IMG/VR virus record: IMGVR_UViG_3300006919_000130
Location: 1-40,584 of that record
Source: a virus
Strand: one strand, 5' to 3'
Length of the DNA: 40,584 nt
Shown here: positions 7,475 to 35,401 of the stretch, piece by piece
Layout: each line of letters starts with the position of its first letter
How positions within the stretch are numbered: the first letter of the stretch is position 1
The notes under the pieces: model-generated
Told to the model about the DNA's origin: nothing
Seen by the model: the letters and a program-made list of their open reading frames with translations, nothing else
Databases searched by the model: none
Translations under genes and position numbers: made by a program

Positions 7475-7509
7475 TCCTTATGACAGTCGCAAGATCGCAC
7501 ACAGGCAAT

Positions 7510-7549
7510 GTCCAACCTGCGTCCGACCATGTCCAACCTGCGTCCGACC
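7510..7549 (-). repeat. Repeat cluster 4: four GTCCRACC copies at 10-11-bp steps
   Basis: GTCCAACC at 7510 and 7531, GTCCGACC at 7521 and 7542; steps of 11, 10 and 11 bp. It is inverted relative to cluster 3, 36 bp away, so the two could form a long cruciform or hairpin. The last copy runs into the stop of the primase-helicase gene (7549). Confidence 0.85.
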
Positions 7550-13048: not shown

Positions 13049-13761
13049 GGCATGGCATGGAATTGCAGGCAAGGCTCGGCTAGGCCCGGCACGCCCCGGC
13101 GTGGTCAGGTCCGGCAGGCGAGGCATGGCATGGCCAGGCAGGGCTCGGCCAGGACTGGTCCGGCAAGGATTTGCAGGCACGGCATGGTGTGGCTCGGACC
13201 GGCATGGAAACGCAGGCGGGGCATGGCACGTCACGGCTGGGCTCGGCTTGGATTTGCAGGCAGGGCTTGGCGCGGCAAGGCTCGGACTGGAGTGGATGGG
13301 AAACGCAGGCACGGCGAGGTTGGGCATGGCCAGGCGCGGCCGGGTTCGGATTCGCAGGCGAGGCATGGCCCGGCAAGGCTCGGCCGGGCGTGGATTCGCA
13401 GGCAAGGTGGGGCATGGCAAGGCCCGCCCCGGCCGGGATACGCAGGCAAGGTGTGTCAAGGTTGGGCTTGGCCGGGCCCGGATTCGCAGGCTTGGCCTGG
13501 CTTGGCGCGTCCAGGCCGGGTGGGGCTCGGAATCGCAGGCGGGGCATGGCACGCCACGGCAGATCACGGCAAGGCCTGGCCAGGCTGGGCCAGCAGTGGC
13601 AGGCAAGGCGGGGCGTTGCAAGGCATGGCTGGGCCTGGAATCGCAGGCTCGGCGGGGCTTGGAGTGGCTAGGCGCGGCACGGCATGGTCAGGAATTGCAG
13701 GCATGGTTCGGCTCGGCACGGCACGGCAGGGCACGGCGTGGCCCGGCCAGGAAACGCAGGC
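13049..13761 (+). repeat. GGCNN pentamer array with 15 phased anchors
   Basis: 713 bp made almost wholly of GGCNN pentamers. At 15 places an anchor GGAWWYGCAGGC interrupts (13 fit; the copies ending at 13119 and 13604 are degenerate). The GCAGGC starts are 13065, 13114, 13173, 13212, 13256, 13305, 13354, 13398, 13442, 13486, 13535, 13599, 13643, 13697 and 13756. Spacings are 49, 59, 39, 44, 49, 49, 44, 44, 44, 49, 64, 44, 54 and 59, every one of the form 5n+4. Each unit is thus 6-11 GGCNN pentamers, one GGAWW and a tetramer YGCA. It fills the gap between two genes exactly. Long ORFs through it are artefacts of few stop codons. GG every five bases could allow two-tetrad quadruplexes. Confidence 0.95.
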
Positions 13762-24370: not shown

Positions 24371-24718
24371 TCAGAAGCTAAATTTCGCACCAGTCTTGAA
24401 ACCAAGGCTCAGCTCATCGCCAGTGCTGAAAGAAATCTCGCCGTAGAGAGGACCACCGCTGATACCAGCTTTGCCGGTCAGCTCGACTTCGTTTTCACCA
24501 GTGTCCGGCAGGACAGCTGCTGGGCCTGCCTGGATGTAGGCACCATTGTCGAAGTCGTACCCAATGTGAGTTTCGAGGGTGGCACCGCCCGTGCCGGAAT
24601 CAAGCCCGGCTGAGGCATTGAGTTCCGGGTTGATGTACCAGTCGGCACGGACTTGAGCAGGAGATGCCAGCACAGCTGCTGAAACGGCGACACCACTCGC
24701 AATGAGAAGTTTGAACAT
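24371..24718 (-). CDS. Exported small outer-membrane-like protein (115 aa)
   Basis: Signal peptide MFKLLIASGVAVSAAVLASP with cleavage near VRA-D. The mature part alternates hydrophobic and polar residues (WYINPELNASAGLD, ATLETHIGYDF) and ends in Phe (FKTGAKFSF), the usual beta-barrel C-terminal signal. Too short for a full barrel of eight long strands; an outer-membrane or periplasmic role is likely. Related short proteins occur in marine cyanophages as far as I recall. Confidence 0.65.
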   Translation of the reverse strand: MFKLLIASGVAVSAAVLASPAQVRADWYINPELNASAGLDSGTGGATLETHIGYDFDNGAYIQAGPAAVLPDTGENEVELTGKAGISGGPLYGEISFSTGDELSLGFKTGAKFSF

Positions 24719-24729
24719 TTGGAAGAGAA

Positions 24730-24855
24730 CTAACGTTTTCCCTGGCCACGATACTTCTTTCGTCCATGGGACGGTTTTGAATGTGATCCATCCCCTTGAC
24801 GAGTCTTTTTGGGCTTGCTAGGGACAAAGTTTTTCCCGCTAATTGATTGAGCCAT
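24730..24855 (-). CDS. Small basic protein ending KKYRGQGKR (41 aa)
   Basis: Read by eye: MAQSISGKNFVPSKPKKTRQ, then GDGSHSKPSHGRKKYRGQGK and a final R. Its ATG overlaps the previous TAA as TAATG, and it ends 11 bp before the exported protein's ATG. A KKYRGQG end is, I recall, conserved in marine cyanophage peptides. The charge suggests nucleic-acid or capsid binding. Confidence 0.65.
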   Translation of the reverse strand: MAQSISGKNFVPSKPKKTRQGDGSHSKPSHGRKKYRGQGKR

Positions 24856-25046
24856 TAGATGCCGTCAGTGGATTCCAGCAGCGCATATTTATTGGTCAAG
24901 CCGGTGTAAAGACCATGCTGAGGGTGGCTGATCTGATCGCGACCATCAAGGAAATACAACTCGTTGATCCACAGCACTCTTGAGGCCATGGCCTGTATGT
25001 CCTCCGCGCCAGGCTTGGAGGCGATCATTGGATCTGGGCGTTTCAT
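24855..25046 (-). CDS. Hypothetical protein (63 aa)
   Basis: Starts MKRPDPMIASKPGAEDIQAM. TGATG overlap with the preceding gene supports the start. Contains LWINELYFLDGRDQISHPQH. Unknown function. Confidence 0.65.
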   Translation of the reverse strand: MKRPDPMIASKPGAEDIQAMASRVLWINELYFLDGRDQISHPQHGLYTGLTNKYALLESTDGI

Positions 25047-25273
25047 CAGGAACCTGCAGTGATTGCAGCGTTCAAGGGTGCAAGATCCTGGGCATCAGTC
25101 CAATAGGTCTTGGCCACCATGATCTGCAGGTGCTCAACGTTGCGTGCAACAGTTGCAGTCTGCTCATCATCACGGCTGCTAAGAGCTATCAGATCGTTAA
25201 TCAGGGTGACTGAATCCAGGGCAGCATCGTAATGCGCCTGGATTTCAGCAGCAGTCAGGGTTTCTTCGGACAT
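25046..25273 (-). CDS. Conserved phage hypothetical protein (75 aa)
   Basis: Starts MSEETLTAAEIQAHYDAALD and includes RNVEHLQIMVAKTYWTDAQD. Helical. A family I recall as frequent next to fibre genes in marine cyanophages. Coupled downstream by TGATG. Confidence 0.7.
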   Translation of the reverse strand: MSEETLTAAEIQAHYDAALDSVTLINDLIALSSRDDEQTATVARNVEHLQIMVAKTYWTDAQDLAPLNAAITAGS

Positions 25274-25281
25274 TTGTTGGG

Positions 25282-28200
25282 TCAGATGCCTGCAGCGTCA
25301 AGTCTAGCCTTAAGCGCAACATTTTCTGTTGACAGCTCTTTGACGGCGTTCACCAAATACCAAGTCAGGTTGTCTGAATCGACAGACTTAACACCTGTAG
25401 ATTCTGTCTTGACGCAATCTGGCAAGACTTCCTCCAGCTCTTGAGCGATAACGCCGAGCTGAACGCCTGACTTGTCGATCGCATCAGTTGCACTGAGTTC
25501 AGTGATTTCCTCGGGCAAGCGATACTCAAAGTTGCGAACACGAATGTCGTTAATTGCTGCCAACCCAGTTGTGTTATCAACAATGTTTTTCTTGAGGCGA
25601 CGATCAGAAGTAGTTGACCAAGAAGATGAGTTGTTGCCTTGGTAAACAGCTCCGCCTGATGGAGAAATAAAACCTGTGTCGTTACCTTTGCCTGTCTGGC
25701 CAGAGCCAGAAGAAACAACTAACTCATTCGATGCGCCACCAGAAGAGCATCTGGCATCCCTGCCAATCAAGGTATTTCTGTTTCCTGTTGTCGGGCCAGT
25801 GTTTTCACCAGCGCTTCTGCCAATAAGAGTATTATCACCGCCTGTTGTTACTAGCAGGCCAGCTCCACGGCCCATGCATACGTTGTCATTGCCTGTTGTG
25901 ATTGCTTGCCCACAAGAGTTACCCACCGCAACATTGCCAAGCCCAGTAGTGACTGCGCTAAGAGAAGTAGAACCGACACCAACGTTGTCCCTGCCTGTAG
26001 TTTGTGCGTCAAGACTGTTAGCACCAATAGCAGTGGAGTAATCGCCTGTAGTGTTTTGCTTTAACGCATTATAACCCATTGCAGTGTTGTAGTTTGCCGT
26101 AGTATTGTTCTCCATGCAGTTATGTCCAACCGCTATATTGCCAGCGCCGGAACTATTGCTGTAAAGAGCACTAACGCCAATACCAGTATTGCTATAGCCA
26201 GTGGTATTTGTAATCAGTGCGTTCCAGCCAAACGCTGAGTTTTCGTTAGCAGTATTTGCGCCTAAAGCATTATGGCCGACCGCAGTGTTTCGGATGGCAG
26301 TTGTACTTGCATCAAGAGCATTAGTGCCGACTGCTACGTTTTCGCCGCCTGTGGTCTGTGAACTAAGCGCGTCAAAACCAACAGCAACGTTGTTACTAGC
26401 AGTAGTATTTGCATCAAGCGCGTTAGCACCAACAGCAGTGTTGTAAGAGCCGGTGCTGTTTACAAGAAGAGCATGTCTGCCAGACGCTGCGTTGAATTGT
26501 CCAGTTGTATTAGCACTTAGAGAGGATTCACCAACGGCTGTGTTTTGCCCGCCAGTGGTGTTTTCTTCTAAAGCCTGGTGTCCGACAGCGGTGTTATTGC
26601 CTGCAGTGGTGTTCTTTTCAAGTGCTTCTTGACCAATAGCAGTGTTTCCAGCGCCAGTGGTGTTAGTGGTTAAAGCGTTTGTGCCGACTGCGACGTTAGA
26701 GCTTGCTGTGGTATTCGCGTCCAATGCACCAACCCCAATACCTACGTTCGATTGACCAGTCGTGTTTGCAAATAAGGCGTCTTTACCTACAGCAATGTTG
26801 TGGTCTGCTGTAGTGTTAGAAAAAAGTGCGTTATAGCCAATCGCAACGTTATTAGAACCCGTTGTGTTGACATAAAAAGACTCGCTTCCAACTGCAGTAT
26901 TTTTTTGCCCTGTTGTTGTATTTCGTGCAGCATCTTTTCCTGCCACAACATTATGCGTGCCAGTGGTGTTGTGGCGTAAGGCGTCATAGCCAACACCTGT
27001 ATTGTCTGCTCCTGTGGTGGTGCTGTATAAAGCCCTGGCACCAACAGCAGTCTGTCTTGCACCACTCGTGTTGCTGTATAGAGCGGTATAACCAATGGCA
27101 ACACTTTGATTGCCAGTCGTATTTAAATACGCGGCATACCCACCTATAGCAACACCTTCAGTGCCAGTTGTGTTTGACCCAAACGCGTGGTAACCAACAC
27201 CAGTGTTGTTATTTGCAGTGTTTGCATCAAGTGAGAAGTTGCCGACAGCTACGTTTTGAGTGCCTGTTTCATTGACGCCCAGAGCTGCGTAACCAATAGC
27301 AAGGTTGTGATTTGCAGTAGTATTTGCATCGAGAGCGTTTGCGCCAATCGCAATGTTTTGACTGCCGGTCGTGTTAACACCTAAAGCAGTATATCCATTC
27401 GCAATGTTGTAATTTCCGGTAGTATTTGCATCAAGAGCGAGTGAGCCAACCGCTGTGTTTTGCGTGCCAGTGGTGTTTACGTTTAGAGCGGCTCTACCAA
27501 GTGCTGTGTTGTTGCTTGCAGTTGTGGCAGCAGACAGAGCTGCGTCACCAAAAGCTGTGTTGTCAGCACCAGTGGTATTTGCATCAAGTGCAACATATCC
27601 CACTGCAGTGTTATTAGCGCCTGTAGTATTGGCACCGAGGGTGTTGTAACCCATTGCGGTGTTTCTGTCGGCAGTTGTGTTACTTGTAAGGGCAGCAGAT
27701 CCTACAGCTACGTTGTAATTACCAGTGGTGTTGTGATCCAGCGCGTTATAGCCGACCGCAGTGTTATGTGATGCAGTGGTATTCGAGTTCAGCGCGGCAC
27801 GGCCAATCGCCGTGTTACGTCCACCAGTGGTATTTGCGCTGAGAGTCGCGTGCCCGACACCCGTATTAGTAACACCAGTTGTATTTGCATCAAGAGCGAG
27901 TGAGCCAACAGCAACGTTTTCCGTACCAGTGGTGTTTGTCAGCAGGGCTTCTCGGCCAACAGCAACGTTATAATTTGCAGTGGTGTTATCCCTAAGGGCA
28001 CGCATACCCACTGCTACGTTGTAATCTCCGGTTGTATTTGTTGTTAGAGCGGTGCTACCTATTGCGGTGTTTTCGGAGCCAGTAGTGTTTGCATTTAGTG
28101 CGTTTTTACCAACAGCAGTATTGTGATTTGTAGTGCCATCATCGTTCGTAAGAGCACCCGTTCCAAGGCCAATCGTTGCGCCGCTGCTGTTCGTAACAGC

Positions 28201-30303
28201 ATCAGACAAGCCATTGATTTCAGTTGCTCCACCACTGGCATCGGCGAACTCAATGTCTCCGTTAGTCGAGTTGTAGGTAAGGACTTGACCGTTACTTGCG
28301 CCTGACTGCAGACCAGGAATGCGCAGGCTGCTGATATTTGCATCACCAAGCGTGATTTCGTTAGAAACGCTTGTTGTGCTTGCGTCTGCGTTAGCGCCAA
28401 GAATAAGGTTATTCGTGCCGGACAGGCTTACGTTGTATTGAGCCTCGTTGCCGATAATTGTGTTGTTATCACCTGTCACAGACGTGCCCGCACGACTGCC
28501 AAGGCAGACGCCATAACTTGCAGTGTTGCTCGACCCAGTGCCTCTTCCGATAAACGTATTGCTTATGCCTGTAGTTACACTGAAACCACTAGCTGCGCCA
28601 TCACCAATGTATACATTACTGGCGCCAGTCGTTACACCTCTGCCTGAATTGGTTCCAATAAAAACGTTGTTATTTCCAGTGGTCAATTTTCTGCCACTGT
28701 CGCTGCCAGAAATAGCAACGTTGAAATTACCTGTAACGCCAGCAGAATTATTAAGTGCGTTGCCAATCGCGATATTTCCGCTTGCTGTTGTTATGTCTCT
28801 GCCAGCCGTATAGCCCAAAAGGACATTTTTCGACCCTGAAGTGATGTCCAGCCCAGCGTTATAGCCAAGCGCCGTATTGTTCTGATTAGTGCCATTGCTA
28901 TTAGTTAACGCACCAGTGCCGAGACCAACACTGACTCCACTGTCGTAGGTGACAGCATCAGACAGACCATTGATCGCGGATGCACCATCAGCGCCATCAG
29001 CGCCTGCAGGTCCTTGAGGACCGGTTGCACCAGTTGCACCCGTAGATCCGGTTGCACCTTGGGGGATAGCAAAGTCAAAAGTAGCGGCAGAACTTGAGCC
29101 ACTATTGGTCACAGTGGCGCTTGAACCTGCAGCACCCGTGGTGACAGTGCCAACAGCAATCGTCGCTGCAGCACCTGCAGCTCCGGTTGCACCAGTCGCG
29201 CCTGCTGGGCCAGTCGCACCTGTATCGCCTTTGTTGCCAGTCCTGGCAAAGGTGACAACTAGACCCTGGTTGGCAGTGAAGGTGCCACCACCAGAAACAT
29301 AAGCACAAGTGACTTTGTGATATCCGCTCGCTTCTGTTGCAGCAGAAACTGTGTAGAGCCTGAACTCGTCAGGATCGTTTTCTACGCTGACTTTGAAATG
29401 ACCCTTGATCGTAGAGGTAGAGTCATCAATCGTCCTCAAGAAGGACTGAATATCGGTGCCATTTTCGTCGGCATCATCAATAAATAACGTTGTCGCACTT
29501 GCAAGAGTGCTGTTGTTGAAAGCTAGCTTGCCTGTTCCAGGGTCAGCATCGCTGGTGGAAGTGCTGAACAGATACTCGAACGTTGCGCCACCAAATGCAC
29601 CAGTCTCGCCTTGAGGGCCTTGAGGTCCAGTTGCGCCAGTAGGGCCTTGAGGTCCAGTCGCACCAGTTGCACCAGTCGCTCCAGTAGGGCCAGTGCTGCC
29701 GTGAGGAATGCCGAAGTTAAATACAGCAGTACTGGAGTTGCCTGAGTTGGTAACAGTGGCACTGCTGCCTGCACCAAGTGTGGTGACTGTGCCAACCGAG
29801 ATGCTGCCTGCTGGTCCTTGAGCACCCGTCGCGCCGGTTGCACCAGTCGAGCCTTGCGGACCAGTAGCACCCTGAGGACCAGTAGCACCCTGCGGGATAG
29901 TGAAGTCAAGAACAGCAGCGCCTGAAGAACCACTGTTTGAAACGCTTGCGTTTGACCCGGCAGAACCAGTTGTGACATTGCCAACTGCGATAGTCGCAGC
30001 AGCACCGGTTGGGCCAGTAGCTCCTTGAGGACCAGTAGCTCCTTGAGGACCAGTGGCACCCGTGGCACCTGTTGCTCCAGTGGCGCCTGTTGCTCCGGTC
30101 GGTCCGGTTGCACCACGAGGCAGCGTGATGTCAAGAACAGCAGCAGTAGAGGTGCCACTGTTGCTTACAGCTGCATTACTCCCAGGTGAGCCTGTAGTAA
30201 CAGTGCCAACTACCACTGTCGCGGCCAAACCTTGCGGTCCAGTCGGGCCAGTGATGACAGTGACGACTTTAGTGTTGGGGTCTCTTACTACTGCGGTCGT
30301 CAT
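25282..30303 (-). CDS. Giant tail fibre with collagen-like and 17-residue repeats, S74 end
   Basis: 1673 aa. The first ~470 residues alternate collagen-like Gly-X-Y blocks (GATGATGATGATG) with a module of the form VGxVTTGxxGSxA plus NSGxSxxAVxDFxIP, five copies. The centre holds about 46 tandem 17-residue units of the form NTAVGxxALxxNTTGxx, like the beta-roll heads of trimeric adhesins. The last ~100 residues are the S74 autoproteolytic chaperone, with [11 protein letters not shown] at the cleavage site and coiled coil at the end. It is an adhesion fibre that should trimerise and shed the chaperone. The start overlaps the preceding gene (ATGA). Confidence 0.9.
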
Positions 30304-30641
30304 GCTGTGTACCCCTGACTGACGGTGATCACACCCTCAAGATAGTACTGACGCAAGCCAGAAGAATCCTGAATCATGACGTCGTAGTAGAGAACGTCAG
30401 GGAACTCAGTGGTCTGAGTATCGGTCAAGGACAAGGTGACCTTGCCCTGTGCCCGATTGTTGTACGCAACCGCAAAGTCAGCGTACTTTTGAGTCCTCTT
30501 TTCGTTCCAGGCTTGCGACAGCACCGTGGCACCTGTCAGGTCAATCACTGCAGCCGGGTCACCTTCCTTGAATTGAATCTCAAGCGAAAAATCAGCCCTG
30601 CGTTGCAAGGTGAAGTTATAAGTGCCGGGATTAACTGACAT
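30300..30641 (-). CDS. Fibre-associated beta-sandwich protein (113 aa)
   Basis: Starts [21 protein letters not shown] BppU-N-like phage domain: [42 protein letters not shown] and [11 protein letters not shown] at the end. Such domains sit at the baseplate or connect fibres. ATGA overlap with the giant fibre suggests the two are made together. Confidence 0.7.
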
Positions 30642-30671
30642 GACAAGCCTTTTTAGGCAATTTTAGCCCCC

Positions 30672-30995
30672 TTACCAGGGAACTCCAGAGCCGGAAACAG
30701 GAGTGCGCTGCAAGTCGATCTGTGCCTGGAGCGCAGCTTCGATTTCAGCAACCTTGTCCGCACCACCAAGCTTGGCTTGCAGAGCTGAAATTGCCCAAGA
30801 CTCTGTGAGTTCCGAATACGCGGTCAATTCGGAATCATCTTCAGGCTGGTCAAGACCAACGCTGCCATACGCACCAGCTTCATAGGTGCCGTCGTTAGCG
30901 GTAACGGTGTAATGCACGGTTTGCACAGCACCGTTGCTCAGCTGACGATCCATGGTGCCAACGGCCCAAGTGAACGTTGTGGTGGGTGTAGCCAT
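30672..30995 (-). CDS. DUF7936-like fibre-cluster protein (107 aa)
   Basis: Starts MATPTTTFTWAVGTMDRQLS, then VQTVHYTVTANDGTYEAGAY and GVPW at the end. This matches a small family I recall in marine cyanophages beside fibre genes (DUF7936). AAGGA lies nine bases before the ATG. Function unknown; probably a structural accessory. Confidence 0.7.
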   Translation of the reverse strand: MATPTTTFTWAVGTMDRQLSNGAVQTVHYTVTANDGTYEAGAYGSVGLDQPEDDSELTAYSELTESWAISALQAKLGGADKVAEIEAALQAQIDLQRTPVSGSGVPW

Positions 30996-31023: not shown

Positions 31024-33582
31024 CTATTGCGCCTCAAGGGCGGCAACTTTCGCTTCTAGGGTTTCAATCTTACTGATGGCTTCTTGCAACGCAGCTGTTA
31101 GCAATGGCACCAGCTTCGACTGATCGATGCCCTGATAATCAGGGATTGTGTTGCCATCCTCATCAAGCTTGTTGTCCCCAACAGAAACACCCTCTGGCAG
31201 CTCTTGGCCTTCTTTCCAAACTTCTACGCCGTTGTGCGTTCCACTGATGGCCTCTGGCACAACGGTTTGCGCTTCGTGTGCAAGAAAACCATCGACTGTT
31301 CTATCAGTTTCACCAATAAAGTTAAATCGTTTAGGCGCTAACTGTTTGACACGAGTGATTGCGCCATCGAGATCAACGATGTTTTCTTTTAAACGATAAT
31401 CAGACGAAGTTAAATAACTGGTCGCTGCTGTTGCGGTTTGTTGGATCCTGCCAGTAGTAGTGCCTGCTGAATTTATAAATAGCAAATAATTTTGATTTAA
31501 GGTTGAATTTGTAGGCTTCAGCACCATCCCGTTTCGGGAAGTGTCAAACGCAGCACATATCAATCCGTTAGCGAGGCCGGAAGTCGTATTAATAAGTACG
31601 TCACCATTATTGGCGACAGTCACTTTATCTACATAAGATCCAGAAACATTGCTTGAGATCGTCAGATCATTATCGTCTTGGTTGGAGTTGAGTCTCCATC
31701 CATCGCCGTTATCGTCACCTTCATCTGCAATCAAATACAGGCTGGCGCTTAATCCTTCTCCTCCAGTAACCCGCAAGTCTCCTGACTTGACATCTACCAT
31801 TCCCGATGAATCGATTCGCAGCCGCTCGCTACTGGCAGTTTCAAAACGCATAGAGTTATCGCTATGCACATACCGGATACTGCCTGCCTCATCATCAGCA
31901 GCGTCTCCAAAATAGATGCGCCCTGTTGTTGCTGAAAGAATGGAAAGACCGGTATCTGCAGCACCTTTATCAATTACAAAATCATCAGCATTAGCGTCTG
32001 GCGTAACAGTTGATCCAGTTCCAATTTTTACCATGCCCGCGCTGTCGATTCGCATCCGCTCGAAAAGACTTCCGCCTGTTCTTGTATCAAAAGCAAGTTC
32101 TCCATTGTTTGCACCTTGTGATATTCCCCTAATTGTTGAAAACTGTTTGATGGCTGCGTTACTGTCATTGCCTTGAAAAGCAATGGAGGGTCCAGTCCCA
32201 GCCGCAAAGCTGCTTGTATCCCTTAGCTTTAAAGCTGGCGTATCTCCATGAACTTCTAGCAGTTCAGTACCACTTGTTGCACCAATCAGCACGCGGCCAG
32301 AGCTGTCAATTCGCATCCGCTCGGAATTGTTTGTCCCAAAACTAAGAACACCGGCAGCCTCAGTAGCTCCTAAAAAACAACTTCTGCTGCCACTGCTGTT
32401 AAATATCTCAACACCCCCGGTAGCGTCACCTATGGCCGAAGCATTTGCATCATGAAATCCTAAACGAGGGCTATTATCTACAATCCGTACATCTCCTACA
32501 ACGTGTAATTTTTCAGCAGGCGACGTCGTACCAATGCCAACATTGCCGTTTTCATCGATGCGTAATCTTTCAGCAATTGAACCTGCATTTCCAGTGGCAA
32601 ACGTCAACCCTGTTGCATTACTGCCGCCTTCATCGGTGGCATTGATTGCTGCAGTAATTCCACCAGTAGTAACAGCAAACGCAATGTTTCGTCCAATATC
32701 TCCAGTGCCTTGCGGTGCCTCAAAAACAGCTTGATACTCAGATAACGTTTGACTTAACGTTCCGTCGCCGCTGCCTGGACCGAAGTCGACTAATGCTCTG
32801 GGTGAAGTCGTGTTGACGCCAACATTTCCAGAGCTGTCGATAACCATGCGGTTACCAGTTCCAGCAGTCCTAAATGCTAAGCGATCATTTGTATGGCTAT
32901 ATTCGACAGCTCCGCGATATGCAGCATCACCTGAAGTTCCGTCAGCAAAAGTAAGTGAACCTTGATTGTTAGTGGCTGAATAAACTGTTATACCTTCACC
33001 GCCTGATCCGCTACCGACAACTAGGTTGTCAGAAGCGTTGCCAGTAAAACTGGACATAGTGGTGTTGCCAATACCAACACGGCCTGAGCTGTCGATTCGC
33101 ATTGCTGAAGAACCAGCAGTGTAAATCGAAAGAGCGTCAGTGCTGTGATTGTACTCAAGCTGTCCTCTATACTCGCTGGCACCAGAAGTCCCGTCTGAAA
33201 AATATATTGAGCCGTAATTTGACGTGCCACTGCGAAGTGTTAGACCGCAGTTGCCACTATCTGCGACAGTTAAGTTGTCAGCAAGGGCATTGCCTTCAGT
33301 CGTGGTGCCCAAGAGCAACCGCCCCGAGCTATCAATAACAAGCCGCTGCGTGCCGCTTGTCGCAAATGCCAACTCGTTCGCAGCAGGTGACAGCACACCC
33401 GTGTTTTGGTCGTCCGCAAACGCCAGTGCTGGTGCGCTCGCCGTTCCATCAGGCAAGTTCCGCAGCAGGTCACTGACGCTTACTTTCTTCGTCGCATCCG
33501 CTCCAACATCAACGATCGGCAGAACGTCAGTCCCGGCGAGGGCAGTGGCAGCCGTCAGTTCGGTGATCTTGACGTTTGCCAT
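31024..33582 (-). CDS. Tail fibre with S74 chaperone (852 aa)
   Basis: The N-terminal anchor MANVKITELTAATALAGTDV and LPIVDVGADATKKVSVSDLL is shared with the 489-aa fibre. It then carries seven IDSSGRVGIG-type units, typical of trimeric fibre shafts, and SSDYRLKENIVDLDGAI (about residue 728) opening an S74 domain with a C-terminal coiled coil. An adhesion fibre whose chaperone is cleaved after trimerisation. Confidence 0.9.
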   Translation of the reverse strand: MANVKITELTAATALAGTDVLPIVDVGADATKKVSVSDLLRNLPDGTASAPALAFADDQNTGVLSPAANELAFATSGTQRLVIDSSGRLLLGTTTEGNALADNLTVADSGNCGLTLRSGTSNYGSIYFSDGTSGASEYRGQLEYNHSTDALSIYTAGSSAMRIDSSGRVGIGNTTMSSFTGNASDNLVVGSGSGGEGITVYSATNNQGSLTFADGTSGDAAYRGAVEYSHTNDRLAFRTAGTGNRMVIDSSGNVGVNTTSPRALVDFGPGSGDGTLSQTLSEYQAVFEAPQGTGDIGRNIAFAVTTGGITAAINATDEGGSNATGLTFATGNAGSIAERLRIDENGNVGIGTTSPAEKLHVVGDVRIVDNSPRLGFHDANASAIGDATGGVEIFNSSGSRSCFLGATEAAGVLSFGTNNSERMRIDSSGRVLIGATSGTELLEVHGDTPALKLRDTSSFAAGTGPSIAFQGNDSNAAIKQFSTIRGISQGANNGELAFDTRTGGSLFERMRIDSAGMVKIGTGSTVTPDANADDFVIDKGAADTGLSILSATTGRIYFGDAADDEAGSIRYVHSDNSMRFETASSERLRIDSSGMVDVKSGDLRVTGGEGLSASLYLIADEGDDNGDGWRLNSNQDDNDLTISSNVSGSYVDKVTVANNGDVLINTTSGLANGLICAAFDTSRNGMVLKPTNSTLNQNYLLFINSAGTTTGRIQQTATAATSYLTSSDYRLKENIVDLDGAITRVKQLAPKRFNFIGETDRTVDGFLAHEAQTVVPEAISGTHNGVEVWKEGQELPEGVSVGDNKLDEDGNTIPDYQGIDQSKLVPLLTAALQEAISKIETLEAKVAALEAQ

Positions 33583-33931: not shown

Positions 33932-35401
33932 TTAAGTCGTTATCTCATAAGTGAGACTAAATCTCATATTATTGTCACTAGCATTGTTCAGATCACTGTG
34001 TCTTACATCGTTATAATTAGTGTTACCTACTCCTTTCCTAAAACGGATAACCCAGCTATTGTCGAGATATTGAAGAAACGCAACTGCTAAGCTTGAACCA
34101 AGTCGCTCTCCATGAACAGCGGTAGACCCTAATTCCCCACTTGTAGTTGAAGGGACAAAAGGTAGACCGCCAATTTTAATGGGATTAGAGGAGGTAATGT
34201 TATCTAAAGCATGAATGTCGCAGTTAATTGTTACCAGCCTACCAATTTTTGTATAGGTATTAGTATATTGCGATGATCCAATGTTTCCGTCGCTTGCACA
34301 AGTTGGCGTCCAAGTGCCCTCCTCATAATCTTCGAGAGCGTTTGCGGCAGCCGTGTCGCTGTTGAACTTAAGACCGTCATTATCAATTCTTACCTTCTGA
34401 ACATTTCCAGTAGTCCCATCGTTGGGAGCAACATAGAAATACGTCCCATCAGAAGAGCTGTTACTGTCCCACTTGCAGCCAAGCTCACCACGGGTGTTTC
34501 CTGCTGTAGTTAATCTAAAATCAATTGCTGCGCCTTTATTTGCGGTAGCGTTAATAAAGTTAGATACGGCAAGTGGATAAGAACCACTAGAGCTAGTGTC
34601 AACAACTTCAAGCTTTCTGTCCGGCGATGTGACCCCAATGCCGACGTTGCCAGAGCTGTCGATTCGCATTTTCTCGCCATCAGCACGGCCAAAAATATGC
34701 TGATCAGCAGTCGTAATACTATTGACAAATGATGCAGTCGAACGGTTGTAATGATTTACAGTATTATTTCCAGCACTACTTCCAGGGTAAAACTCAAATC
34801 CTTCCGTGCCAGCATCTGAAACAACGAGTGCCCTTTGAGGATCCGCCGTTCCGATGCCAACTCGGCCAGAGCTGTCGATAACTACTTCATCGGCGCCTGC
34901 ACCGTTGTAGTTAAGTCTAAAAGTATTGTCAGTATAGGTATAGGCAAGCCAATCATTTGTGCTGTTTGTTGCCTCAAAAGCTTGTGTACCTTTTAGTGTT
35001 AAAAGATGACCAGGCGACGATGTTCCGATGCCCAAATTGCCAGAGCTGTCGATGCGGGCAGATTCACTGCCACCTGTATCAAAAGTTAGGTTATTGCCAC
35101 TACCTCCGATCCGAATGTTGTCTCCCGTAGAAGTGTTATTCCTGAAGCAAATTTCAGCAGCCGTTCCAGTTGCTTCAACGTACTGAACAATATTGTTACC
35201 CTTAACATGCAAATTAGAGGCAGGAGACGACACGTTGATGCCGACATCCCCAGGAATACCCTTGAACAGGCTTTCGACCGTGATCTTTTTGTTCTTATCA
35301 GCCGCAGCAGCCTCGCTAACGTCCACAATCGTCAGCAAGTCGCCCGTTGCCTGACTACCTGCAGCAAGAGCAGTCAGATCCGTAATTTTGCGGTCGGCCA
35401 T
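33932..35401 (-). CDS. Tail fibre (489 aa) with a different C-terminal domain
   Basis: The N-terminus (MADRKITDLTALAAGSQATG with NKKITVESLF) is homologous to that of the 852-aa fibre, followed by three to four IDSSGNVGIG shaft units. The S74 end is absent. Instead, LEDYEEGTWTPTC and YTKIGRLVTINCDIHALDN form a C-terminal receptor-type domain seen in other phage fibres. It may bind a different receptor from its paralogue. Confidence 0.85.
   Translation of the reverse strand: MADRKITDLTALAAGSQATGDLLTIVDVSEAAAADKNKKITVESLFKGIPGDVGINVSSPASNLHVKGNNIVQYVEATGTAAEICFRNNTSTGDNIRIGGSGNNLTFDTGGSESARIDSSGNLGIGTSSPGHLLTLKGTQAFEATNSTNDWLAYTYTDNTFRLNYNGAGADEVVIDSSGRVGIGTADPQRALVVSDAGTEGFEFYPGSSAGNNTVNHYNRSTASFVNSITTADQHIFGRADGEKMRIDSSGNVGIGVTSPDRKLEVVDTSSSGSYPLAVSNFINATANKGAAIDFRLTTAGNTRGELGCKWDSNSSSDGTYFYVAPNDGTTGNVQKVRIDNDGLKFNSDTAAANALEDYEEGTWTPTCASDGNIGSSQYTNTYTKIGRLVTINCDIHALDNITSSNPIKIGGLPFVPSTTSGELGSTAVHGERLGSSLAVAFLQYLDNSWVIRFRKGVGNTNYNDVRHSDLNNASDNNMRFSLTYEITT

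Follow-up and report, generated by a model that had tools for sequence, protein, structure and literature searches.

The giant fibre gene in the window, the 40,584-nucleotide stretch of viral DNA analysed here (IMG/VR record IMGVR_UViG_3300006919_000130), probably encodes an accessory host-binding tail fibre of an aquatic siphophage, which appears to travel in a swappable cassette with its own putative collar protein. Fibres of this type are already known; the plug-in arrangement with its own anchor gene is a useful lead. The gene lies in a run of tail genes, behind TipJ, a collar gene and two other fibre-like genes, and adjoins an LtfC-like gene (Table 1).

Table 1. Features of the fibre cassette and its flanks, in order along the fibre (positions are those of the window).
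Feature	Residues	Position	Strand	Remarks
DUF7936 gene		30672..30995	(-)	left slot boundary
Cassette		25049..30671		LtfC-like gene, fibre and 75-aa ORF
LtfC-like gene		30300..30641	(-)	phrog_1084 / phrog_3304; stop overlaps fibre ATG
Giant tail fibre gene		25282..30303	(-)	1673 aa, ATG start
Leader	1-25	30229..30303	(-)	strand-rich, runs into GPTGPQG
Beta module 1	about 27-62	30118..30225	(-)
Collagen-like GXY run 1	64-102	29998..30114	(-)
Beta module 2	about 101-138	29890..30003	(-)
Collagen-like GXY run 2	139-168	29800..29889	(-)
Beta module 3	about 166-201	29701..29808	(-)
Collagen-like GXY run 3	202-237	29593..29700	(-)
Unrelated stem module	237-360	29224..29595	(-)	about 124 residues
Collagen-like GXY run 4	356-379	29167..29238	(-)
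Beta module 4	about 377-415	29059..29175	(-)
Collagen-like GXY run 5	416-442	28978..29058	(-)
Array 1	about 444-695	28219..28974	(-)	cap, irregular head-type units, neck
Array 2	728 to about 1509	25777..28122	(-)	46 head-type units
Peptidase_S74 core	1566-1632	25408..25608	(-)	S1566, K1571
75-aa ORF		25046..25273	(-)	directly downstream of fibre, within cassette
63-aa ORF		24855..25046	(-)	right slot boundary

An earlier note, made from the letters alone, had read a collagen-like stem, five beta modules, about 46 head-type repeats and an S74 end in this single gene, and that architecture is confirmed. Pfam and PHROG searches match the gene to tail fibre, collagen and S74 families. The Collagen match has E 8e-17 (61 bits against a cut-off of 27), and the five GXY runs total 156 residues. 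Five is also the correct count of beta modules: four, each about 40 residues long, are homologous to one another (near residues 25-66, 99-140, 164-205 and 374-417), and the fifth is unrelated to them. The unrelated module is 47% identical to part of a fibre of Pelagibacter phage HTVC010P; its model is poor (pLDDT 66), Foldseek gave nothing for it at an E value of 0.001 or below, and the highest second-look Z was 4.9, so no fold is claimed for it. The estimate of about 46 repeats holds for the long array, but a separate, irregular array that precedes it had been missed. At the C-terminus, Peptidase_S74 matches with E 1.5e-12 (48 bits against a cut-off of 22), and S1566, D1567 and K1571 are invariant in all 29 aligned sequences. 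By endosialidase work, the S74 catalytic pair is a serine followed five positions later by a lysine, which corresponds here to S1566 and K1571.

Of the units in array 2, 43 have 17 residues, two have 16 and one has 19. A profile built from these units, whose 46 hits within array 2 arise by construction, finds four more in array 1; 100 shuffles of the protein yield a mean of 0.38 hits and a maximum of 3, and the repeat array is therefore far beyond chance. Within the units, conservation is found at core positions, whereas residues at the surface are free to vary. The array was modelled in part with AlphaFold; this model (monomer, 403 residues) has a block with pLDDT 85 or more at residues 81-260, in which strands recur every 17 residues, and is poor in its first 50 residues and in the S74 part. 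Foldseek returned no PDB match to this monomer model at E 0.001 or better. Second-look alignments pair it with the BpaC head (Z 18.4, rmsd 7.1, 280 residues) and with CbpF (Z 16.5, rmsd 2.8, 182 residues), and left-handed helix acyltransferases trail the adhesin heads at Z about 12-13. In these alignments the predicted monomer fold resembles the heads of trimeric autotransporter adhesins, which are left-handed beta-rolls, as seen in YadA-like heads (BpaC, CbpF, BoaA and UspA1). In contrast to these heads, the window fibre has 17-residue units and an S74 chaperone; it has no Pfam match to YadA_head up to E 5, a search in which HMMER's filters drop most weak matches, and a domain search matched no membrane anchor in the fibre, which ends in S74.

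Fibres of uncultured Caudovirales that combine collagen, head repeats and S74 have similar repeat arrays. Examples are the BFVD entries A0A6J5SI17, named a collagen triple helix repeat protein, and A0A6J5KMU2, named an S74-type auto-processing protein, together with PHROG 4636, 23837 and 6002; none of these entries was shown to span the window fibre as a whole. The tail fibres encoded by Methylophilales phage Venkman and by Pelagibacter phage HTVC111P are 36-37% identical to the window fibre over 69-72% of the protein, from the array to the C-terminal end, and these matches begin at residue 460 or 506, so the stem of the window fibre is excluded.

The cassette occupies a slot between the DUF7936 stop codon and the start of the 63-aa gene. 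In four relatives (L005, L007, L033 and L030), matches stop at window position 30674 and restart at 25048, at the same base of the locus. Across the 28 close loci with both flanks present, a set that is not dereplicated, the slot is empty in 18, holds 136 bp in one and is occupied in nine; the occupants span 1.3-7.6 kb and are usually another fibre. The empty slots could be the ancestral state or losses. The 75-aa ORF is also present in L083 (95%) and L032 (65%). Marine phage metaviromic islands and hypervariable host-recognition regions are described as holding variable fibre genes, some with YadA and collagen domains (PMC3909814, PMC7029224). In contrast to those regions, the slot in the window is defined to the exact base, and an adaptor gene comes with the cassette.

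The gene in front of the fibre is a candidate LtfC relative. The window protein scores 22.9 against Pfam LtfC, below the cut-off of 27; all 12 homologues match phrog_3304, and 11 of the 12 also match Pfam LtfC, with E values of 0.1 or better. The best PDB match of the LtfC-like profile is the DT57C LtfC chain 8hqz_Q (E 0.012), with unrelated chains next at 0.03, and the protein alone finds only unrelated PDB chains, at E 0.09 or worse. In T5 and DT57C, according to PMC10713586, LtfC attaches the lateral fibres, and the window likewise has an LtfC-like gene beside a fibre with a strand-rich N-terminal leader. By analogy with DT57C in that source, the leader is proposed to plug into an LtfC-like collar. 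Differences from the system described there are that the window stem is collagen-like, whereas that of DT57C is a helical bundle, and that the window belongs to a lambda-like TipJ phage with the gene in a swappable cassette.

The leader recurs in other genomes. Thirteen distinct ORFs found by sequence match directly after an LtfC match all begin with a strand-rich leader that reaches GPQG, and all 13 carry this motif within the first 50 residues. As background, 26 other ORFs among 4389 also have GPQG in the first 50 residues; upstream neighbours were scanned for 10 of these, with phrog_1084 matched by nine (E below 4e-4) and phrog_3304 by eight. Ten genes located after LtfC-like genes in named phages were judged by eye: only three (those of S-CBS4, Melnitz-1 and AP1) begin with a leader that continues into a stretch of the GPxG or GTQGPP type, and the T4-like cyano- and pelagiphages otherwise have no such leader, so there are exceptions to the GPQG rule. 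Literature searches, judged from their listings and from passages of PMC3909814, PMC12906663, PMC10713586 and PMC7029224, gave no publication on an LtfC-plus-leader cassette. Tentatively, phrog_1084 may be an LtfC-type collar, and the LtfC-like protein with the leader may form a widespread, exchangeable plug and socket across different phage tails. The mountable cargo would then be any fibre with a leader, or with a short adaptor of 69-102 residues bearing one, which would explain why such fibres are exchanged in pairs of genes at slots with base-exact borders.

Comparison with relatives indicates how the fibre varies. The fibre of the nearest relative, L083, is 96% identical in the stem and 89% at the end, also carries S74 (48.8 bits) and has 56 units. 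Between these conserved ends the array is scrambled, a pattern unlike the mere addition or removal of units, and the order of the units is scarcely retained (P 0.03-0.05). Among the matches listed, L083 is without array 1, and 671 nt of array 1 recur at 78% identity in the L085 fibre, which has a different N-terminus. Distal modules thus appear to have been swapped, as the window and L083 differ by an array that is itself present in an otherwise different fibre. The L032 fibre retains the stem and differs in its arrays and C-terminus; the repeat profile hits it 23 times, and S74 is not matched. A larger contribution to variation comes from exchange or loss of the entire cassette.

The earlier note had suggested that the 51-bp DNA repeats change in number by recombination. 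Repeat number does differ among relatives (46 here, 56 in L083), but a switch in which frequent 51-bp recombination or slippage creates many fibre lengths within a population is unsupported and highly improbable. The 43 full 51-bp units have a mean pairwise DNA identity of 0.535 (maximum 0.804) and share a longest exact word of 29 nt. Tandem Repeats Finder reports no array in the fibre gene, only short collagen-coding repeats; at the DNA level the array is no tandem repeat in the usual sense, and the near-identical adjacent DNA units expected of variable-number slippage are absent from the window fibre. Repeat counts are equal in 10 of 12 near-identical contig pairs, which are all those with both arrays complete, and each of the remaining two includes a contig that ends within the gene; these pairs are not decisive, because short-read assemblies could collapse true variants. 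Some observations are more favourable to a switch. Two adjacent units in L218 are 98% identical over 51 bp, and single-unit duplication therefore does occur in the fibre family. Neighbouring units in the window slightly exceed random pairs in identity (0.551 versus 0.534; permutation P 0.027, uncorrected for about ten lags), and nine non-independent pairs of sequences keep both ends and differ in the middle. Nevertheless, the divergence of the units and the equal counts in near-identical contigs lead us to reject rapid length switching by slippage of 51-bp units. A higher-order periodicity of units was also rejected, identity being nearly flat over lags 1-12 save for a slight rise at lag 1.

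The array might instead be a passive spacer that sets reach, with neutral, freely swapped coils and the binding tip elsewhere, in the stem modules or the C-terminal cap. The conserved cores and variable surfaces of the units would fit such a spacer, as would the barely conserved unit order between a well-preserved stem and end. However, a variable distal part on a conserved stem is also typical of host-binding parts, L032 has different arrays and a different C-terminus on a retained stem, and a published marine fibre (PMC3909814) under-recruits reads at its C-terminal YadA part; on balance a passive role is rather unlikely. The resemblance to adhesin heads could also suggest a protein that acts off the virion, as a free or cell-surface adhesin, but the position in the tail run beside the LtfC-like gene and the lack of a matched membrane anchor domain make this scarcely credible.

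Under the preferred reading, an accessory host-binding tail fibre, the LtfC-like protein would form a collar on the tail, to which the strand-rich leader would add strands, as in DT57C. The collagen-like runs would make a stiff rod, and the two repeat arrays would build a long trimeric beta-roll that serves as the binding surface. The S74 domain would fold the trimer and then cleave itself off before S1566. Diversity would arise mainly as the cassette and its distal modules are acquired, lost or swapped, and unit number and order would drift slowly by rare unit duplication and recombination, with no fast length switch. As to the host, no tRNA was found in the window and no LtfC relative in genome contigs. 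With TipJ, a single contig was hit at 71% identity, in a MAG assigned to Sphingobacteriales; this contig may be phage DNA binned by mistake, and the host is therefore left unnamed.

The plug-in arrangement is a lead on how such fibres attach to the virus and are exchanged, and it offers a clean natural comparison in which one slot is empty or holds a short or a giant fibre among close relatives. It also proposes a function for phrog_1084, a common phage family of unknown function. If the plug-and-socket proposal is true, the host-binding fibres of aquatic phages would become predictable from the small gene in front, and fibre exchange between unrelated phages would become testable.

The giant fibre described in an earlier note, with its collagen-like stem, array of head-type repeats and S74 end, was found with all three parts in place and is ordinary in kind. 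Both the collagen and Peptidase_S74 matches lie above the Pfam cut-off. The stem (residues 1 to ~443) interleaves five GXY runs, totaling 156 residues, with beta-type modules; four are homologous, of ~40 residues each, and an unrelated fifth lies between GXY runs at residues 237-360. Among related viral loci (L-numbers), this last module recurs at 92-98% identity in three different fibres (L083, L032 and L086) and at 51% in L093; the version in Pelagibacter phage HTVC010P is 47% identical. Ser1566 and Lys1571 are unchanged in 29/29 aligned sequences. Collagen rises ~0.29 nm per residue and a head-type coil ~0.48 nm, so the GXY runs would form a ~45-nm rod and the 46 coils would add a further ~22 nm.

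Features of the tail-fibre gene
Feature	Position	Strand	Details
Fibre ORF	25282-30303	minus	1673 residues
Array 1	~aa 444-690		capped, irregular; directly after stem
Array 2	aa 728-1509		capped, 46 units
S74 end	C-terminal to array 2		contains S1566 and K1571

An AlphaFold model of residues 1271-1673, built with 28 relatives, has a mean pLDDT of 73, reaching at least 85 across the middle of the array; its start and its S74 region are poor. Foldseek returned no PDB match to the array model at E 0.001 or better, the best row being the adhesin CbpF (E 0.0056). Adhesin heads top a second-look structural alignment: BpaC (Z 18.4, rmsd 7.1 over 280 residues) and CbpF (Z 16.2-16.6, rmsd ~3), with BoaA (12.1), AtaA (11.8) and UspA1 (11.3) lower down; non-adhesin matches include the curli subunit CsgA (16.5) and left-handed acyltransferases (12-13). 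Furthermore, 87 predicted viral proteins match at E 0.001 or better, the best a collagen-repeat phage protein, with giant-virus S74 and adhesin-like proteins also among them. Given the adhesin ranking and the absence of a Pfam YadA_head match in the fibre, the modeled array looks like an adhesin head by fold rather than by sequence family. Consistent with a solenoid with a fixed core, the 43 full-length units of array 2 are conserved at N1, A3, V/I4, G5, A8, L9, N12, T13, T14 and G15 and vary freely at positions 6, 7, 10, 11, 16 and 17.

The gene ahead of the fibre, of 113 residues, has matches at 1e-18 to phrog_1084, annotated as of unknown function, and at 2e-9 to phrog_3304 (L-shaped tail fibre assembly); its match to Pfam LtfC falls under the cut-off. 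A profile with 11 homologues has as its best PDB match the DT57C LtfC chain 8hqz_Q (E 0.012), unrelated chains following at 0.03; within the LtfC-like set, 11/12 have a Pfam LtfC hit with an E-value of at most 0.1, and 12/12 match phrog_3304. Passages of the DT57C study describe a ring of twelve LtfC copies, to whose sheets the LtfA N-terminus contributes one or two short strands (PMC10713586). All 13 distinct ORFs directly behind an LtfC match (22/22 loci with downstream sequence, duplicates included) carry GPQG within their first 50 residues, past a strand-rich stretch. This pattern was picked after viewing the 13, so the remaining ORFs serve as control: 26 others among 4389 have GPQG in the first 50 residues, many with a leader of similar type. 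Ten of their upstream neighbors were scanned, of which nine match phrog_1084 (E <4e-4) and eight phrog_3304. Behind LtfC-like genes of named phages, the leader is seen by eye in only 3/10, automated positive marks for P-HM1 and P-SSM2 being spurious. Some LtfC-like partners comprise just 69-102 residues with the leader alone (L085:5977, L075:5520, L138:6075, L117:6066, L135:2597, L040:11748 and L042:8999), and are perhaps adaptors for a separate fibre.

The earlier note also proposed that the 51-bp units change number by recombination, making fibre length variable. Array 2 is old and diverged. Its full-length units have a mean DNA identity of 0.535 (maximum 0.804) and a longest common exact word of 29 nt. 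Shuffling synonymous codons between identical residues lowers the mean to 0.523 (sd 0.002), indicating that unit DNA is only slightly closer than the protein requires. Neighboring units are at 0.551 versus 0.534 for random pairs (P 0.027, with about ten lags inspected), and Tandem Repeats Finder reported nothing in the array. Elsewhere in the window, tandem repeats of 44 bp and 88 bp (72-75% matches) lie at 13191-13491, where ORFs overlap on both strands; an AT-rich 55-bp direct repeat (2.4 copies at 2076-2208, with 93% matches) may mark an origin or a regulatory region; and an exact 21-bp tandem duplication (7508-7549) lies at the end of a VapE-like helicase gene.

Relatives were 221 viral loci picked for similarity to parts of the window locus. 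A 71% relative of TipJ is on L232, a contig of a Sphingobacteriales MAG that is likely a phage contig of doubtful bin membership. Distinct ORFs with at least three unit hits number 91 (range 3-54), the lowest rows being weak because shuffling also reaches three; eight rows have at least 40, one virus accounting for two of them. Unit DNA identity is conspicuous in two rows of the table: L087, with a mean of 0.70, and L218, whose fibre ORF (from ~7202) contains two neighboring units that match at 98% across 51 bp; in this relative one unit was duplicated recently. Nevertheless, unit counts are equal in 10/12 near-identical pairs (at least 93% identity over 60% of the shorter gene), and both unequal pairs include a contig that ends within the gene. 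With diverged units and equal counts, the length switch as stated is unlikely. L083 is 96% alike in the stem and 89% at the end, and has a single array of 56 units; its ten extra coils would be worth only ~5 nm. Its cap pairs with the window's second cap (91% DNA identity), making array 1 an extra part of the window, 671 nt of which match the L085 fibre, whose N-terminus differs. Between the conserved ends, unit order is barely shared with L083 (chain scores P 0.027-0.047, three gap costs), and the best match of a window unit is equally close in L083 (0.683) and within its own array (0.672). The identical proteins of L032 and L084 have the window-type stem and carry two other arrays, with no match to S74. 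Nine pairs, non-independent, keep both ends around a different middle.

The alternative to changing unit number is exchange of the cassette (LtfC-like gene, fibre and a 75-residue ORF) at the slot between the DUF7936 gene and a 63-residue gene. In relatives including L005, L007, L030 and L033, the match stops at window 30674, inside the DUF7936 stop codon, and restarts at 25048 on the identical base of the locus; at the empty junction this stop overlaps the 63-residue gene start (TGATG). Both flanks are present in 28 of 33 close loci (L003-L034 and L036; DUF7936 at least 79% identical, duplicates included), with 18 slots empty, one holding 136 bp and nine holding 1258-7623 bp; L005, L006 and L007 share the same row values. 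Five occupied slots (L003, L004, L008, L019 and L020) hold short fibres starting MANVKITDLD, three (L027, L032 and L036) LtfC-like-plus-collagen fibres, and one (L018) other genes. Among 47 distant loci (L035 and L037-L082), 32 have both flanks, all with at most 105 bp between them. In L024 (2489-5494) the main slot is empty and an LtfC-like gene and collagen-like fibre lie directly past the 63-residue gene, a second insertion point adjoining the main slot. A small outer-membrane-like protein of Phage_OMP type (24371-24718) adjoins the slot in many relatives. Two more fibre-like genes of the window, at 31024-33582 (with an S74 end) and 33932-35401, have starts of MANVKITELTAATALAGTDVLPIVDV / MADRKITDLTALAAGSQATGDLLTIVDV type. 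Since the relatives' short slot fibres begin like these genes, there appears to be a second type of anchor. Exchange of a cassette that brings its own anchor is a better-supported source of fibre diversity than a length switch.
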